Shown piece after piece: positions 20,694 to 27,627 of a stretch of 64,000 nucleotides of DNA. Position 1 is the stretch's first letter, and each line of letters opens with the position of its first letter. The DNA lies in NCBI GenBank assembly GCA_016218825.1, contig JACRCV010000056.1, forward strand, positions 62,001 through 126,000, given 5' to 3'. Source of the stretch: Deltaproteobacteria bacterium. Lineage in GTDB: Bacteria > Myxococcota > XYA12-FULL-58-9. A program made the translations under genes and the position numbers. The notes below the pieces were generated by a model. The model was given only the letters and a program-made list of their open reading frames with translations, did not search any database and was not told the DNA's origin.

Positions 20694-21497
20694 TCAGGGC
20701 GGCAGGCGTTCGGGGCGCAGCTCCGTCAAGAAGGCGCTGAGCGCCTCGTTGAACACCAGCGGCTGCTCGAGGTTCGACAGGTGCCCGGCGCCGGCGATGC
20801 GCACCACCTTGGCGCGCTTGATCTGCGCCGCCATCTGCACCGGAATCTCGGGGGCGATGTAGCTGTCGTCGTCGGCCGCGATCACCAGGGCCGGGCAGTC
20901 GATCTCGGCGAGGAGGGCGCTGGAGTCGGCACGCGCCGCCATGCCCCGCTGCGCGGCGGCGATCCCGGCGACGGTGTTGCCACGGACAATCCGCTCGATC
21001 TCGGTCGCCACCGCCGGGATCGGCACCGGGCGCTGCAACCGCGCCTGCACCTCGGTGAGCACCCAGTCGATGCCGTGCTCGAGCGCCTGGCGCGCGAACG
21101 TCTCGCGGCCGGCGCGGGCGTCGTCGGTGTCGGCGACCGCGCGGGTGCTCGCCAACACCAGACCGCCGATGCGGTGCCGGTGCCGGCGCCAGAAGGCCAA
21201 CGCGCCGTAGCCGCCCATCGACAGGCCGCAGACCACGACCTTGTTGACCCCGAGGTGATCGAGGACCGCGGCCGCGTCATCGGCCATGATCTCCATCGTC
21301 AAGACGTCGGGCGCCGGCCGGCTGTCACCCAGGCCGCGGGCGTCGGGGGCGACGACGCGGTAGTGTGCCGACAGCGCCTCCACCTGCGGCAGCCACATCT
21401 CCTTGTGCAGCGGGAAGGCGTGGAACAACAACAGCGCCGGACCCCGGCCGGCGTCGAGGTACGAGAGCGACAGCTTGCCGAGCGCGACGTTCGCCAT
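20694..21497 (-). CDS. Alpha/beta hydrolase (enol-lactonase-like)
   Basis: A 267-residue alpha/beta hydrolase without signal peptide. Visible elements are the oxyanion region LLLFHAFPLHKEMW, the DxRGxGxS loop (PDARGLGDS), the nucleophile elbow GLSMGG, an acid in ADDDSYI and the catalytic His in GAGHLSNLEQP. The pattern resembles 3-oxoadipate enol-lactonase and related esterases, but the substrate cannot be read from sequence. Its ATG directly follows the TAG of the 1,238-residue protein gene (TAGATG), so the two are translationally coupled. That link to the wall-directed cluster may be functional or just positional. Confidence 0.88.
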   Translation of the reverse strand: MANVALGKLSLSYLDAGRGPALLLFHAFPLHKEMWLPQVEALSAHYRVVAPDARGLGDSRPAPDVLTMEIMADDAAAVLDHLGVNKVVVCGLSMGGYGALAFWRRHRHRIGGLVLASTRAVADTDDARAGRETFARQALEHGIDWVLTEVQARLQRPVPIPAVATEIERIVRGNTVAGIAAAQRGMAARADSSALLAEIDCPALVIAADDDSYIAPEIPVQMAAQIKRAKVVRIAGAGHLSNLEQPLVFNEALSAFLTELRPERLPP

Positions 21498-24400
21498 CTA
21501 CAGCCACTCGGCGGCGATGAAGTCGGTGTCGAGCTTCTTCAAGAAGGCTTGGGCGCGGTACAGGAACTGGCTCGGCGAGCAGGGCGTCGTCTGCGCCGGG
21601 TCGGTGCCGGTCATGATCCGCCAGGCCGGATCCTCGATGGTCTCGTAGGCCACGCCGTCCGGCAGCTGGTTCACCGCGGCCTCGATGCGCTGCAGCATCG
21701 CCAGCACCTGCTTGCGCGACATGCGCTGCAGCTCGGCGCCGGCCGGGAAGCGCTCGGCGACGTGGTGGCGCGCCAGCAGGCTGTTGAACGCCACGATCGT
21801 CTGGCCGTACCGCTCGGCGAAGAAGCGCCGGACCTCGGCGTAGTAGATCAGGAACAACACCTGGCCGCGCTGCTTCTGGAGCTCGCGCACCTGGTAGTCG
21901 GGATCGGTGCCGGTGCGAAACTCCTCCGGCATCACGTAGCTCGAGTCGCGCTCCTGCCGCTGCCGGTGCTGTTGGTACTGCTGGGCGCGCTGCGTCCAGC
22001 GCCCGAGGACGCCGTCGACCGCGTTCAGGTACTCGCGCAGCGCCCCGGTGTGGTGCTCGGCGGGCGGGTTCTCGAAGCCGGCCTCCTGGGCGTCGAAGTA
22101 CTTCTTGAAGGTCTGACGCTGCGAGAACGCCGCGATGTCGAGCTCGTCGGCGCCGTGCGCGGTGCGCATGGAGTACTCGGTGGCGGGCGTGAGCTTGAAG
22201 AGCTCGCCCTCGGTGCCGTCGTTTTTGCGGTAGCGCACCCAGATCGAGGCGTTCTGCTCTTTGATGTAGTTGTCGCGCGCGTAGGCCTCGGTGATCGCCG
22301 TGGCGCCGGTCTTGTCCGGGAGCTTGCCCTTGGCGATCTGGGCGAAGAGGCGCCCGGTGCGCAGCAGGTTCTCGTCCGAGCTCTGCGCCTTCTTGCCCGG
22401 CGCCGAGTACATGAAGCCGGCGGCGCCGAACACCGCCGGGAACATCGGCTTCCACAGCGTCTGCGCCCGGTCGGGGGTGACGTTGTAGCAGTTCAACAGC
22501 TGCAGCTTCTCGATCTCGGCGGCCGCCCGCGGGAAGGTCTTCGCCCATTCCTGCAGCGTGGTGTAGTCCAGGCGGCCGTTCGGGCCCCAGGTGCTCGTAC
22601 CGCCGGAGTGGCCGGAGAGCACCAGCCAGTCGAAGTCGATCTCGCCCCGCTCGGCTTTGGCCATGTAGGTGGCGAGGGCGGTCACGTCCTTGGCGTCGCC
22701 GTCGGCGGGGCCGATGACGACGGGCTTGGCGCCGCGCTCCTTTGCCAGGGTCTTGAAGCGCTTGAGCTCGTCGGGCACCTCGGAGTTCAACCACAACATC
22801 ACCATGGTCTTGGGGCGGCTCTTCGCCGTCAGGCTCGGTGGCGACCACTCGATCAGCCGCCCCATCGTGGCGGCGTCCACACCGCGGAAGCTCCCGGCGC
22901 CGCTCAATCGCTTGAAGCGCGCCAGGGCGTCGAGGGTCGCGGCGTCCATCGTGCCCGACAGCGGCAGACGCTCGCCGAGGACGAAGTTGAGCGTGTGTTG
23001 AACGCGCTTCACCAGCTCGCCCTTCGAGCCCTGGAGCAGCTTGTCGCGCCCCTGGAGCACGGCGAGGGTGGTGCGCTCGAGCGCGCCGCCGAAGAGCGCC
23101 GGGTTGTCGATGACCGGGACCTGCCGGAAGCGCCCGGTCTCGCCCTGCACGCCGCTCTCCGACCACAGCGGCCGCGGATCGATCTCGTAGGTCTTGCCGC
23201 CGACCGCCACCCGCACCACCGGGCCGCCGAGGTTGTCGCCCTCGACCACCGGGTTCTTCGGGTTGGCGGCGTCGAAGCTCCACCGGCCGCTCGTCACCCG
23301 GGCGCCGCCCGTGGCCGCGACCTCGAGGCGCTCCGGCCGCCCGGTCTCCGACACCCGCTTGAGCTCGATCTTGCCCTGCGCCTCGAGGCCGAGCTCCAAG
23401 CGCTCGGTGCGCCCGAAGGCGTCGCGCGGCTTCACCGCCAGGAGCCCCTTGGCGCCGTAACGGGCCGAGCCCTTGATCCGAATGCCGGCGCCCCGGATCT
23501 CGACCCGATCCGGCAGCACCAGGATCGCGTTGCCCTTCGGCCAGACCGCCGGCACCGCGTCGAGGAAGGTGGCGCCACCGGCGTCCACCTCGACCTTGCC
23601 CCACGACAGGGTCACCGCCGTGTCGGGCAACAGCGCCGTGACCCGGTCACCCTTGATCTTGACGCCGCCCTTCTCGACGCTCACCGAGTTGCTGCGCGGC
23701 TCGCGCTCGATGCGCAGGTCGTCGCCGACGATGGTCACCTCGCGCTCCGCCGGCGCCTGGGTCACCGAGACCCCGGCGCCGACCTCGTAGGTGGCCGGCG
23801 GCCGGAAGCGGTACGCGGTGAAACGGCTGCTGTCGGTCGAGAACGCCAGGCCGTCGATGCTGACGTCGCTGTAGCGCGAGAAGCCGACCGGCTGGCCGTC
23901 TTTGAGCACCACGCCGCCGCGGGTCACGACGCCGTCGCGGCTGCTGACGCCCTTGAGGCTGATCGGGTTGTCGTCCACGAGCTTGACGACCGTCGATTCG
24001 GGATCGAGCTTGATCGAGCCCTTGAGGACCCCTTCGGCCTTCCCGTCCCGGAACACCACCTTCAGCTCGCCCTTGCCCTGCCTGACGATGGTGCCGTCCG
24101 GGAGCTCGGCGTCGGTGAGCGCGAACTTCAGGGTCCGGAGCTCCGCCGGGCTCTCCTCGTGACCCATGAGCGACGTGGGCCCCCCGGCGCCGACCATCGA
24201 CATCGTGAGCTTGACGCCCGGGCCGGCCACCAGGGTGTCCTTCGTGGTCTTGACGTTCACGCCGCTGCCCGTGGCCTCGAGACGCACCAGCTCGGACCGA
24301 TAACTGCAGCCTTCGCGGAGCTCGACCCGACCGCCGACGAGGCGCAGCTGGCCGCTCAGCGTCGCGCCGCCCGGCAGATGCAGGGCGTCGCCCTCGATGA

Positions 24401-25214
24401 CGAAGTCGCCCAGATCGCCGATCTTGGTGATGCTGGTGTTCTTCGGCAGCTTCAGCCGCAGCGACCAGTCGTCGAGCTCCCACTCCACCGGCTCGTCGAA
24501 GGTGATGTCGGCGAAGCTCTTCGAGCCGCCCGCGGGCGCGGCGTTGTCGGTCTTCGCCACGGTCGACAGCGCCGTGGCCCGATCGGCCGCGGACATCCCG
24601 AGCAGGTACTCGGGGCGCTCGAACGCCTGTTGCAGATCGTGCCAGCGCGAGCGCGCGGTGTTCGAAGCGCTGGCGTAGAGGGCGGCGCGCTCCGCGCCGC
24701 TCATCGCCTCGATCGGACCGACCACCGCCGCCATCGTCGTCAGCAGCTCCGCCTGCAGGCTCTGGAGCTTGGTGCGCTTGGCCTCGAACTCGGCGCGATC
24801 GACGCCGGCGTTCGGCCGCAGCTCGCCGCGCCCGAGGGCCGAAGGCTCGGCCTGCGCCCACAGCCAGTCGCCGACGTCTCGGAGCTGGCGCTGCGCCTCG
24901 AAGGCGTCGTACGCCGACAGCTCGAGCTCGGCCTGTCTCTCGGCGAGCTTGTGGAAGCCCTCGGTTCGCACCGGCTTGCTCCGGATCGCGCTCAAGGCGT
25001 CGGTGGCCTTGAGCTTCGCCAGGCGGTGCATCAGATGGGCGCGCGTCACCGGGTTGAAGCCGTCCGTCGACTGCTCGCAGGCGGCGACGATGCTGTTCAC
25101 CTTGTCGACGGTGATGCCGCCTTGGGCGGCGATCTCCATCAGCTCGTTGAGCTCGGTCACCGACAGGATCTTGTCCCGAAGCCGCTCGCGGATCGCAGTC
25201 ACCAAGTCGGTCAT
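21498..25214 (-). CDS. Large leaderless protein with PG-binding and CHAT/caspase-like peptidase domains
   Basis: A 1,238-residue protein starting at ATG 25214, with no signal peptide or membrane segment. Residues 1-230 are mainly helical. Residues about 240-700 are beta-rich with short repeats (GGATLSGQLRLVGGRVEL, EIRGAGIRIKGSARYG). Residues about 731-790 form a PG_binding_1-like domain (SKGELVKRVQHTLNF, LSGTMDAATLDALARFKRL). Residues about 800-960 resemble clan CD peptidases, closest to CHAT: a hydrophobic strand ends in WLVLSGHSGG (His869), and 40 residues later another strand ends in LQLLNCYN (Cys909), matching the His/Cys dyad layout. The C-terminal about 240 residues are helical. The dyad assignment is inference from motif and spacing. 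The gene lies among other peptidoglycan-related genes, and its stop abuts the alpha/beta hydrolase start. Confidence 0.8.
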   Translation of the reverse strand: MTDLVTAIRERLRDKILSVTELNELMEIAAQGGITVDKVNSIVAACEQSTDGFNPVTRAHLMHRLAKLKATDALSAIRSKPVRTEGFHKLAERQAELELSAYDAFEAQRQLRDVGDWLWAQAEPSALGRGELRPNAGVDRAEFEAKRTKLQSLQAELLTTMAAVVGPIEAMSGAERAALYASASNTARSRWHDLQQAFERPEYLLGMSAADRATALSTVAKTDNAAPAGGSKSFADITFDEPVEWELDDWSLRLKLPKNTSITKIGDLGDFVIEGDALHLPGGATLSGQLRLVGGRVELREGCSYRSELVRLEATGSGVNVKTTKDTLVAGPGVKLTMSMVGAGGPTSLMGHEESPAELRTLKFALTDAELPDGTIVRQGKGELKVVFRDGKAEGVLKGSIKLDPESTVVKLVDDNPISLKGVSSRDGVVTRGGVVLKDGQPVGFSRYSDVSIDGLAFSTDSSRFTAYRFRPPATYEVGAGVSVTQAPAEREVTIVGDDLRIEREPRSNSVSVEKGGVKIKGDRVTALLPDTAVTLSWGKVEVDAGGATFLDAVPAVWPKGNAILVLPDRVEIRGAGIRIKGSARYGAKGLLAVKPRDAFGRTERLELGLEAQGKIELKRVSETGRPERLEVAATGGARVTSGRWSFDAANPKNPVVEGDNLGGPVVRVAVGGKTYEIDPRPLWSESGVQGETGRFRQVPVIDNPALFGGALERTTLAVLQGRDKLLQGSKGELVKRVQHTLNFVLGERLPLSGTMDAATLDALARFKRLSGAGSFRGVDAATMGRLIEWSPPSLTAKSRPKTMVMLWLNSEVPDELKRFKTLAKERGAKPVVIGPADGDAKDVTALATYMAKAERGEIDFDWLVLSGHSGGTSTWGPNGRLDYTTLQEWAKTFPRAAAEIEKLQLLNCYNVTPDRAQTLWKPMFPAVFGAAGFMYSAPGKKAQSSDENLLRTGRLFAQIAKGKLPDKTGATAITEAYARDNYIKEQNASIWVRYRKNDGTEGELFKLTPATEYSMRTAHGADELDIAAFSQRQTFKKYFDAQEAGFENPPAEHHTGALREYLNAVDGVLGRWTQRAQQYQQHRQRQERDSSYVMPEEFRTGTDPDYQVRELQKQRGQVLFLIYYAEVRRFFAERYGQTIVAFNSLLARHHVAERFPAGAELQRMSRKQVLAMLQRIEAAVNQLPDGVAYETIEDPAWRIMTGTDPAQTTPCSPSQFLYRAQAFLKKLDTDFIAAEWL

Positions 25215-25275: not shown

Positions 25276-26628
25276 CTACGGCAGCACCACGATCGTGTCG
25301 CCGACGCCGAGGTCTTGCAGCAGCCGGTCGACGCCGGAGTTCGCGATCGCGATGCAGCCCAAGGTCCAGTCGGTGGTGCCACCGCCGCCGTGCACCTCGA
25401 CGAGGCCGCCCAGGCCGGTGCTCTGCGGCGGCTCGGTGCAACCGTCCTGCGCCGCGTTGATCGACGTCTGCTCCGCCGCGGTGATGAGCGGCGGCACCGC
25501 GTTCAGCCCCCGGGTGGCGTCGGCCTTGTCCGGATAGCTGAGCAGGAACGCCTTGTAGAAGCTCGACGGGTTCACCAGCCGCGGGATGTAGAACACGCCC
25601 TCGGGGGTCTTGCCGTCGCCCTGCTTGACCTTGTCGCCGGTGGGCGCCGAGCCGAGGCCGGCCTGGAAGTTGGTCGCCAGCGCGCCGGCGTTGCAGAGCG
25701 CGACGTTGCGCGCCGCCTTGTGCACCACGATGTAGTGATCCTTCGTGGTGTCGCAGGGCGACAAGAGCTCGCCGGCCGTGCCCCACGCCGCGGCGCAGTC
25801 GGGGGCACCGACCGTCGAGTCCCAATTGGCGGCCTGGGCCGTCTGCCAGCAGGCGCCGACGCTGCTCAGACAACCGTAGTTGTCGCCCTGGCGGCACTGG
25901 CTCGGCATGCCGCAGCGCTTCAGGCACGCGGTCGTGGTCTCGCCCTCGAACTGGACGCAGGTCGAGCCCGAAGGACAGCCGGCGACGTCGCACATGATCT
26001 TGGAGCAGTAACCGCCGGTCGCCGACAGACACGACAGGTGCGCGCAGTCGCTGGCGACGGTGCAGGCATCGCCGATGTCGAAGGCGGGCGCGGCCTCGCC
26101 GGGCCAGCGCTGGATGTCCACCGGCAGACAGACCGGGAACAGGCGGTCCGACTGGTTGTAGCGCCGGCGCAGCACGCAGGCGTAGCCCGGACGACAGCCG
26201 GAGGGCGACTTGTCGAAGTCGCACTCGCTGGCGCACAGCGGCTGGCCGTTGGCGTCGATGCACCGGCTCATCGTGTTGAGGGTGCCGGTGTAGGTGGTGT
26301 CAGGGCAGGTGTAGGCCGAGGCCCCCTGGTTGCACGCCTGAGTGCAGAAGCCGTTCGCGAAGCCGGTCTGCAGGCACTGCGGCGTCTGGTTGAAGCTCGC
26401 GTTGTCGCACTCGCCGGGGTTTTGGCAGGCGCCGCCGATCCAGCCGGTGTTGATCTCGACGCCCTGTACCGGGGGCATCGGGTCGCCGCCGTCGTCGTCG
26501 CCCCGGCCGTCACCGTAGATGGTTTGGCCGGAGGGATCGCCCTCGGGGCTCACCTTCTCCGGCCCGGGGTTGCCGCCGCACGCCGCAGCCGCGGCCACGG
26601 TCCACACCATGAAAACCCGCTTCACCAT
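25276..26628 (-). CDS. Cys-rich lipoprotein with C-terminal L,D-transpeptidase (YkuD) domain
   Basis: A 450-residue protein with an AGAGG Shine-Dalgarno. Its lipoprotein signal peptide is MVKRVFMVWTVAAAAAC. Residues about 45-255 hold many CxxxxxC segments (CQNPGECDN, CASECDFDKSPSGC) typical of the Cys-rich lipoproteins in this genome. From about residue 285 a YkuD catalytic domain begins (YIVVHKAARNVALC, GKTPEGVFYIPR). It ends with the active-site pattern EVHGGG (His413) and DWTLGCIAI (Cys425). The family cross-links peptidoglycan or attaches proteins to it through a Cys thioacyl intermediate. Placement beside the PG-binding proteins supports a wall role. The fusion of a Cys-rich region to YkuD is unusual. 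Confidence 0.9.
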   Translation of the reverse strand: MVKRVFMVWTVAAAAACGGNPGPEKVSPEGDPSGQTIYGDGRGDDDGGDPMPPVQGVEINTGWIGGACQNPGECDNASFNQTPQCLQTGFANGFCTQACNQGASAYTCPDTTYTGTLNTMSRCIDANGQPLCASECDFDKSPSGCRPGYACVLRRRYNQSDRLFPVCLPVDIQRWPGEAAPAFDIGDACTVASDCAHLSCLSATGGYCSKIMCDVAGCPSGSTCVQFEGETTTACLKRCGMPSQCRQGDNYGCLSSVGACWQTAQAANWDSTVGAPDCAAAWGTAGELLSPCDTTKDHYIVVHKAARNVALCNAGALATNFQAGLGSAPTGDKVKQGDGKTPEGVFYIPRLVNPSSFYKAFLLSYPDKADATRGLNAVPPLITAAEQTSINAAQDGCTEPPQSTGLGGLVEVHGGGGTTDWTLGCIAIANSGVDRLLQDLGVGDTIVVLP

Positions 26629-26643
26629 CGCAATAACCTCTCG

Positions 26644-27627
26644 TCACCGCTCCAGGCGCGGTGGGACGATGTCCACGTGCGCGTGGTGGATGTGCTCATT
26701 GTCTAGGACCAGCTTGTCGGCCCAGGGCTTGCTTTCGCGCTTGGCGCGCTCCAACAGCTTCGGATCGTTGAAGAGAATGCGCTCCACCTCGGGCTGGCTC
26801 GCGAACGCCTCGATCATCACGAACATCGTGTCGCGGTCGTAGTCGGCCCAGCCGACGTGGGTGCCGATCTGTTGCACCGCGTCGCCGCCCTTCTTCGGCA
26901 GCCGCAAGTCGATGTCGAGGCCGTTGCGGTGCGTCTGGTGCTCCGGGATGCCCTTGCCCTTCGCGAGCACGGTGCCCTGCTTGCGGCTGATGTCGTTCAC
27001 CATGATGCGAACGCCGCTCCCGCTCGCCTGCTTGTCGAGGTATTTCTGATAGCGCTGACCGGCCTTGTCGACGACCTCCAGGGTCTTCGCCGCCCCCCAG
27101 TTGTAGCCGTCGCGATCGATGCTGACCCAGCCGGGGCCGCCGGGCGCGACCTCGACCCAGCGCGGCGCGTCCTTGTGAAACAGCGCGCGGCCGAGGTCGT
27201 TGTTCGCCGCGACCTTGTCGGCGAGGTCGGTCCACTGCTCTCGGCCGGCGCACATCGAGGCGAAGATCTTCAGGTAGCGCGACACCTCGGGGCGGAAGAC
27301 CCCGTCGGCCTTGACCGGAAAGCCGAGCTCGGCGAGGCGCTTCTGGATGACGCGGACATCGTCGGTGCGGTTCGTGGCGCGGGTGCCGACCGTGGCGGCG
27401 AGCGGGATCTCGAGAGAGCGCGACGCGCTGCTCGAGGTCATCGCCGGCGCCGGCAACGGCAGCCCTCCGCGCTCCGGGATCCGGCCGCAGTGTTTCGCTG
27501 GCGGCAAGCGCACCACCCCGGCGGCGGTGGTCGAGGTCGACGCCGTGCTCCGATCACACTCCTCCGCAGCCACCATCTTCCTGGTCGCGGTGGTCGCGGT
27601 CAAAGCTGACACCGGATCGTCGGCCAT
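26644..27627 (-). CDS. PG-binding protein with LAS-type (MepA/M15-like) endopeptidase domain
   Basis: A 327-residue protein from ATG 27627. It has no signal peptide; the first 85 residues are Thr/Ala/Ser-rich and look disordered. Residues about 88-125 resemble a peptidoglycan-binding domain (DDVRVIQKRLAELGF, VKADGVFRPEVSRYL). The C-terminal part carries LAS metallopeptidase zinc motifs: H-x6-D in HRNGLDID (His233, Asp240) and H-x-H in HHAHVDIVPP (His315, His317). These match penicillin-insensitive murein endopeptidase MepA and M15 enzymes, which cleave peptidoglycan cross-links. It is 15 bases upstream of the L,D-transpeptidase gene and probably in one operon with it. The lack of a secretion signal is odd for an enzyme whose substrate is outside. 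Confidence 0.85.
   Translation of the reverse strand: MADDPVSALTATTATRKMVAAEECDRSTASTSTTAAGVVRLPPAKHCGRIPERGGLPLPAPAMTSSSASRSLEIPLAATVGTRATNRTDDVRVIQKRLAELGFPVKADGVFRPEVSRYLKIFASMCAGREQWTDLADKVAANNDLGRALFHKDAPRWVEVAPGGPGWVSIDRDGYNWGAAKTLEVVDKAGQRYQKYLDKQASGSGVRIMVNDISRKQGTVLAKGKGIPEHQTHRNGLDIDLRLPKKGGDAVQQIGTHVGWADYDRDTMFVMIEAFASQPEVERILFNDPKLLERAKRESKPWADKLVLDNEHIHHAHVDIVPPRLER

Follow-up and report, generated by a model that had tools for sequence, protein, structure and literature searches.

An apparently uncatalogued family of caspase-like cysteine proteases with predicted links to the cell wall, found in myxobacteria and their relatives

P0002, a leaderless protein of 1,238 residues encoded in a stretch of DNA of 64,000 nucleotides (the window), is a very large and divergent member of a family of caspase-like cysteine proteases that occurs in myxobacteria and their relatives and is apparently uncatalogued. 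The repeated fusion or adjacency of its members to wall-binding and wall-remodelling proteins points to proteolysis at the bacterial cell wall, and from the sequences we predict a wall-associated, site-specific endopeptidase that would act alongside an L,D-transpeptidase. What is new is a family within a known clan, in a new domain context; the fold itself is not new.

Clan CD enzymes are known to regulate cell death and virulence, as well as the processing of toxins and the maturation of the spore coat. Eight families are assigned to the clan in the excerpted text of PMC12445089, none of them described there as wall-bound, and the spore protease YabG is proposed as a further one. If our prediction is correct, a wall-binding family paired with an L,D-transpeptidase would extend caspase-type proteolysis to the cell wall of Gram-negative bacteria. 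It would also give a testable function to the leaderless myxobacterial proteins that carry LysM or PG-binding domains. Neither Pfam nor NCBIfam contains the family, and its members are therefore probably annotated as 'hypothetical'. A literature search combining myxobacteria, caspase-like and LysM found nothing; its coverage was incomplete, so this result is no proof of novelty.

The P0002 gene and protein

The open reading frame of P0002 (21498..25214) proved to be genuine, with an ATG start and the predicted length of 1,238 residues. It lies on the minus strand, as do all features of P0002 described below; the preliminary description had given no strand. The frame is coding, with a GC3 of 0.94-0.98 over its full length, the same as in neighbouring genes. 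Hydropathy analysis bore out the described lack of a signal peptide and detected no transmembrane segment (19-residue Kyte-Doolittle maximum of 1.13, and of 1.0 within residues 1-60). An in-frame stop codon is reached only ~5 codons upstream of the ATG, leaving no room for a missed hydrophobic N-terminus.

The two motifs that had led to the proposal of a His-Cys peptidase were found at residues 867-872 (SGHSGG, containing His869) and 906-911 (LLNCYN, containing Cys909), with the spacing of exactly 40 residues that had been reported. His869, the predicted catalytic histidine, is encoded at 22608..22610 and Cys909, the predicted nucleophile, at 22488..22490. Both lie in a caspase-like (clan CD) catalytic core spanning residues 803-1010 (22185..22808; the end is approximate), which is followed by a family-specific, all-helical C-terminal domain (residues 1011-1238; 21501..22184) and preceded by a long N-terminal extension. 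No credible match to P0002 was found in Pfam or NCBIfam, nor any match in a sequence search of the PDB, and the catalytic domain of P0002 and its family lies out of reach of the sequence models of Pfam, NCBIfam, PADLOC and the PDB.

A family with an invariant His-Cys dyad

A search of 58 related genomes with P0002 retrieved three proteins whose likeness to it is confined to the C-terminal part. The alignment of these three was used to build a profile for a search of the phylum (195 genomes), and the enlarged alignment was then used to search genome_contigs. Residues 803-1238 of P0002 define the family, which was matched in 30 of the 195 phylum genomes by profile search and at 26 loci in genome_contigs with the enlarged alignment. 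Carriers are mostly Archangium and Myxococcaceae, together with Archangiaceae, Deltaproteobacteria metagenome-assembled genomes (MAGs), one MAG labelled Schekmanbacteria and one labelled Gammaproteobacteria. Viral contigs, phages and plasmids contained no close relative of P0002, which therefore seems not to derive from a phage or plasmid. The family is small and within reach of ordinary biochemistry, and in cultured Archangium species it has single-domain members of about 410 residues, such as that of Archangium violaceum (L049).

The survey of orthologues that had been proposed earlier showed both candidate catalytic residues to be invariant in 28 of 28 homologues in one alignment and in 27 of 27 in another, and thus in all aligned full-length homologues. 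The histidine always precedes the cysteine, by 39-45 residues, which is the order seen in clan CD, and the catalytic cysteine is the sole cysteine of the domain in 22 of 35 members. A second conserved feature, the motif [IVL][PA]xxW[ILV], forms the very C-terminal end of the protein in 33 of 35 members, so that the helical domain ends in a conserved xW[ILV]-COOH.

Predicted fold and placement in clan CD

A structural model of residues 720-1238 of P0002 (pLDDT 67) placed strands before both the His and the Cys, and a fold search with this model returned noise only, with no match. The AlphaFold model of a central homologue, L040, built from a 27-sequence alignment, reached a pLDDT of 89.9 and a pTM of 0.82. 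Read from its predicted secondary structure, the chain begins with strand 2-7, a helix and strand 25-29; helices lead on to strand 109-113, with His115 just behind it, and a hairpin and a helix to strand 150-154, with Cys156 just behind it. A helix, strands 176-180 and 223-227 and an all-helical region follow. The His and the Cys thus directly follow two consecutive core strands, as had been proposed by analogy with clan CD. Neither of the outcomes named beforehand as refuting the assignment, a His and Cys far apart in the model or orthologues lacking them, was seen. All clan CD enzymes share a six-stranded sheet with the His and Cys ending strands 3 and 4 (PMC4357240), and the predicted order in L040, b1-b2-b3(His)-hairpin-helix-b4(Cys)-b5-b6, matches this arrangement. 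According to the same article, strand 3 of caspases is followed by a small beta element, and PmC11 has additional helices at its C-terminal end; the small element after b3 is present in the L040 model too.

A Foldseek search of the PDB with the L040 model gave the C11 protease iotapain (6nag) as the top match, with a probability of 0.96, a marginal E-value of 0.011 and a low whole-model TM-score of ~0.3. Legumains (probability up to 0.80, for 4n6o) came next, interspersed with generic Rossmann folds. In a library of viral folds, clostripains ranked second and third (probabilities 0.99 and 1.00), behind an uncharacterised phage protein. The modest E-values probably reflect the helical half of the model, which has no counterpart in these structures.

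Profile comparisons were used to relate the family to named peptidases. Against C14 domains from related genomes, hhalign gave a score of 35.5, compared to a mean of 14.5 (sd 2.1, maximum 20.5) for 80 column-shuffled controls, and each of the two catalytic residues was aligned with its C14 counterpart. The family therefore shares with caspases, metacaspases and orthocaspases a significant profile similarity with the dyad in register, as well as SGH and ACYSG-type motifs. However, this likeness is seen at the profile-profile level only, with no Pfam match to PF00656 in 27 members. The family also differs from C14 in having a separate helical C-terminal domain and LysM or PG-binding fusions, and in lacking the Gly after the His. 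This glycine is a feature of clan CD; here the His is followed by His, Asn, Ser and similar residues, and an invariant Gly stands at +3, so that the family pattern is His-x-x-Gly instead of the His-Gly of the clan.

With C11 (clostripain, PmC11 and iotapain) the family shares a His and then a Cys ending neighbouring strands, and additional helices behind the core such as those reported for PmC11 (PMC4357240). C11 also supplied the best solved-structure match, at the marginal E-value given above, and the two viral clostripain models. Nevertheless, there was no Pfam match to PF03415, and the hhalign score against C11 domains of the same phylum was not significant (17.1, within the null range, maximum 23.3), although the alignment still placed both catalytic residues in register. 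C11 proteases also differ in lacking the wall-binding domains. The suggestion of a relationship to CHAT peptidases (PF12770) found no support, and membership of that family was rejected: there was no Pfam match, the hhalign score of 18.1 fell in the shuffled range (maximum 24.9), and the alignment was out of register, leaving only the general His-Cys arrangement of the clan in common. YabG resembles the family as a His-Cys protease whose substrates are envelope proteins, those of the spore coat, and PMC12445089 proposes to place it in clan CD; it differs in its spacing of 46, its His-Asp and its occurrence in endospore formers, and has no Pfam sequence match to the family.

Taken together, the preliminary assignment to clan CD is supported through families C14, C11 and C13, and in view of the profile scores and the His-x-x-Gly pattern we class the P0002 family as clan CD-like, separate from C11, C14 and CHAT. 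A weak likeness in sequence profile was also seen to DUF6345 (PF19872), a family of unknown function: Pfam matches were under the curated cut-off (E 0.005-0.008), and hhalign scored 28.0 against a null maximum of 19.2 with the CYS motif in register. DUF6345 may be related to clan CD as well.

Wall-binding domains

The PG_binding_1-like domain noted earlier in P0002 was clear when compared by profile with PG_binding_1 domains of related genomes. It spans residues 731-787 (22854..23024) and was aligned over 55 columns with a probability of 94%. The hhalign score was 37.8, compared to 9.6 +/- 2.4 (maximum 19.6) for 100 shuffles and a maximum of 17.1 for other 88-residue windows of P0002 lying off 731-787. 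The domain falls below detection by the Pfam HMM (PF01471), to which neither the whole protein nor the fragment gave a match, and BLASTP of the segment against the neighbouring M74 protein found no similarity.

In homologues from Myxococcaceae an N-terminal LysM domain is found instead, above the Pfam cut-off in all four LysM-type homologues tested. Four Delta-type members (L036-L039) carry an EF-hand-like N-terminus in place of LysM, under the Pfam cut-off. Most family members, P0002 among them, have no export signal, and the predicted wall location therefore rests on binding domains and neighbours. In one member, that of L038, the N-terminus carries a hydrophobic segment with an AxA site behind it.

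These domains bear on the idea that the family acts inside the cell, as a signalling or cell-death protease like the cyanobacterial orthocaspases of C14, with its wall-type domains serving another role. P0002 is leaderless, C14 is the best profile match, and several ordinary C14 proteins occur in the window genome and its relatives. We nevertheless give this idea little credence, in view of the LysM and PG_binding_1-like domains, the peptidoglycan-enzyme neighbours described below, and the hydrophobic segment and AxA site of the L038 member.

Many carriers of the family are myxobacteria, a group rich in predators. P0002 could accordingly be viewed as a predatory or competitive effector, in which a C-terminal caspase-like toxin domain is sent into other cells while the PG-binding or LysM part fixes it to the wall of the target. 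The catalytic domain does sit in the C-terminal part, the missing Sec signal would fit specialised secretion, and in bacterial polymorphic toxins C-terminal caspase-like domains are given as toxins and LysM and PGB1 as adhesion parts (PMC3482391). However, Pfam searches showed no RHS, PAAR, WXG, VgrG or other trafficking domain, and PADLOC gave no match. The C-terminal domain is uniform family-wide, with no sign of recombining C-terminal cassettes, and the loci compared held no conserved immunity-type or small neighbour gene, the recurrent neighbour being a wall enzyme. We consider an effector role unlikely. Nor does any result obtained here favour the earlier idea of delivery by a contractile system or release by lysis.

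Genomic neighbourhood and pairing with a YkuD lipoprotein

Immediately upstream of P0002, at a distance of 61 bp, lies a gene for a lipoprotein with a C-terminal YkuD L,D-transpeptidase domain (25276..26628, minus strand), followed by a Peptidase_M74-type murein endopeptidase with PG_binding_1 (26644..27627, minus strand). An alpha/beta hydrolase gene (20694..21497, minus strand) lies directly downstream. Wall enzymes also adjoin other family members, namely YkuD in L036, YkuD and a tandem PG_binding_1 protein on either side in L038, a PG_binding_1+C39 protein in L041 and an Amidase_2 lipoprotein in L060. About half of the genes in this neighbour scan were chosen by eye, and for that reason no probability is attached to the pattern. 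Most clusters of neighbouring genes consisted of shadow ORFs that overlap the peptidase gene; the YkuD cluster (L036, L038 and L060) was an exception.

The YkuD protein of the window is orthologous, with a match over most of its length, to the neighbours of the peptidase gene in L036 (49%, E 3e-121) and L038 (45%, E 2e-99), which are genomes of two other families. The position of the YkuD gene relative to the peptidase gene varies, being upstream in tandem in the window, downstream in tandem in L036 and convergent in L038. In L060 the N-terminal part of the YkuD lipoprotein lies 4 kb from the peptidase gene and is cut by the locus end, while L037, L039 and most Myxococcaceae loci showed no YkuD neighbour in the flanks examined. 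None of seven relatives searched had a full-length copy of the YkuD lipoprotein, making chance adjacency unlikely.

In G001, a genome of the same genus, LplA, the hydrolase, the lipoprotein, a response regulator and two further genes are kept in order, with the hydrolase gene adjoining the lipoprotein gene; P0002 and the M74 gene are missing, and the lipoprotein ends before the YkuD domain. In G002, LplA adjoins the flanking gene and the rest of the locus is missing. Thus, in the four genomes checked, P0002 and the YkuD domain were gained or lost together at this or the adjoining locus, G001 having neither and the window, L036 and L038 having both. The LysM fusions, the peptidoglycan-enzyme neighbours and this recurrent YkuD partner make the tie to the cell wall, suggested at the outset, stronger than first thought.

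The same observations could be read to mean that the enzyme is a peptidoglycan hydrolase, whose His-Cys dyad cleaves stem peptides or cross-links and not protein. Cysteine enzymes of the NlpC/P60, CHAP and YkuD types act on peptidoglycan and provide a precedent, but we know of no clan CD member that does so. The predicted fold is unlike NlpC, CHAP or YkuD, and clan CD is presented as a clan of site-specific endopeptidases in PMC12445089. We consider this reading very unlikely.

Proposed function

We think it reasonably probable that P0002 is a divergent and enlarged clan CD endopeptidase of a new family that is targeted to the wall and makes specific cuts in protein, with the YkuD lipoprotein, or its products, as the likeliest substrate or partner. 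The shared core of the family, in Myxococcota and a few other bacteria, would be an alpha/beta fold of caspase/C11 type with the His869-Cys909 dyad and the helical C-terminal domain. Interchangeable N-terminal domains, LysM in Myxococcaceae and the PG_binding_1-like domain in P0002, would carry members to peptidoglycan, where the tethered enzyme may make a site-specific cut in a wall-associated protein. This could be the neighbouring lipoprotein-L,D-transpeptidase itself, or proteins that the YkuD enzyme attaches to peptidoglycan.

GPI8 and PorU are clan CD enzymes that both cut and transfer proteins. By analogy, one might imagine a sortase-like Gram-negative system, in which the peptidoglycan-bound enzyme cleaves proteins, perhaps transferring them too, and, with the lipoprotein L,D-transpeptidase, attaches or releases wall proteins, the IP[DE]xW[ILV]-COOH end and an N-terminal tag serving as sorting or export signals. 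We regard this extension as a long shot.

The N-terminal half of P0002 (residues 1-720) is nearly unique. Weak matches to residues 266-333 in f13 genomes were discarded, the proteins examined being His/Arg-rich antisense shadow frames. Only residues 356-504 (23703..24149), a module of unknown function, were found again elsewhere, with 33-34% identity to a leaderless calpain-family (Peptidase_C2) protein of G004, another genome of P0002's order. As this module precedes two cysteine peptidases that are unrelated to each other, it may serve in regulation or targeting, and the long N-terminal part that includes it probably either restrains the activity of the enzyme or determines what it cuts.

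Possible unrecognised relatives

Profile similarity to the family defined by the caspase-like core and helical C-terminal domain of P0002 was above null for the DUF6345 proteins (PF19872; loci L103-L111), with the Cys motif in register. DUF6345 may be related to clan CD without having been recognised as such. Among viral proteins, the top fold match was an uncharacterised phage protein (BFVD A0A8S5MXG5, Myoviridae sp. ctWaE18; E 1.2e-4, prob 1.00), which is probably C11-like and has gone unrecognised.

Terminal sequences and associated modules

Nearly all family members end in the motif IP[DE]xW[ILV]-COOH (33/35 by a loose pattern), and the C-terminal residues of P0002 are IAAEWL (window 21501-21518, minus strand). 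An ORF in genome G138 (L034:1333-1974) encodes the helical C-terminal domain alone, without the catalytic core, and is either a remnant or a stand-alone domain.

Many leaderless members (L040-L048, L050-L054, L057, L059) open with a short conserved tag, for example M-P-[DN]-[RP]-[IV]-x-x-[RN]-P, and continue into a linker rich in P and T; the tag could possibly serve in export. A similar N-terminus (MSSPRIGS) was seen in a leaderless neighbouring protein unrelated to the family (L047:3318-4631).

The Cys-rich lipoprotein of the window genome (window 25276-26628) carries a YkuD L,D-transpeptidase domain, and the version in the same-genus relative (L134:3027-3956) is without it. The module at residues 356-504 of P0002 also occurs in a leaderless calpain-family (Peptidase_C2) protein of genome G004 (L002:1159-2994, identical to L070).
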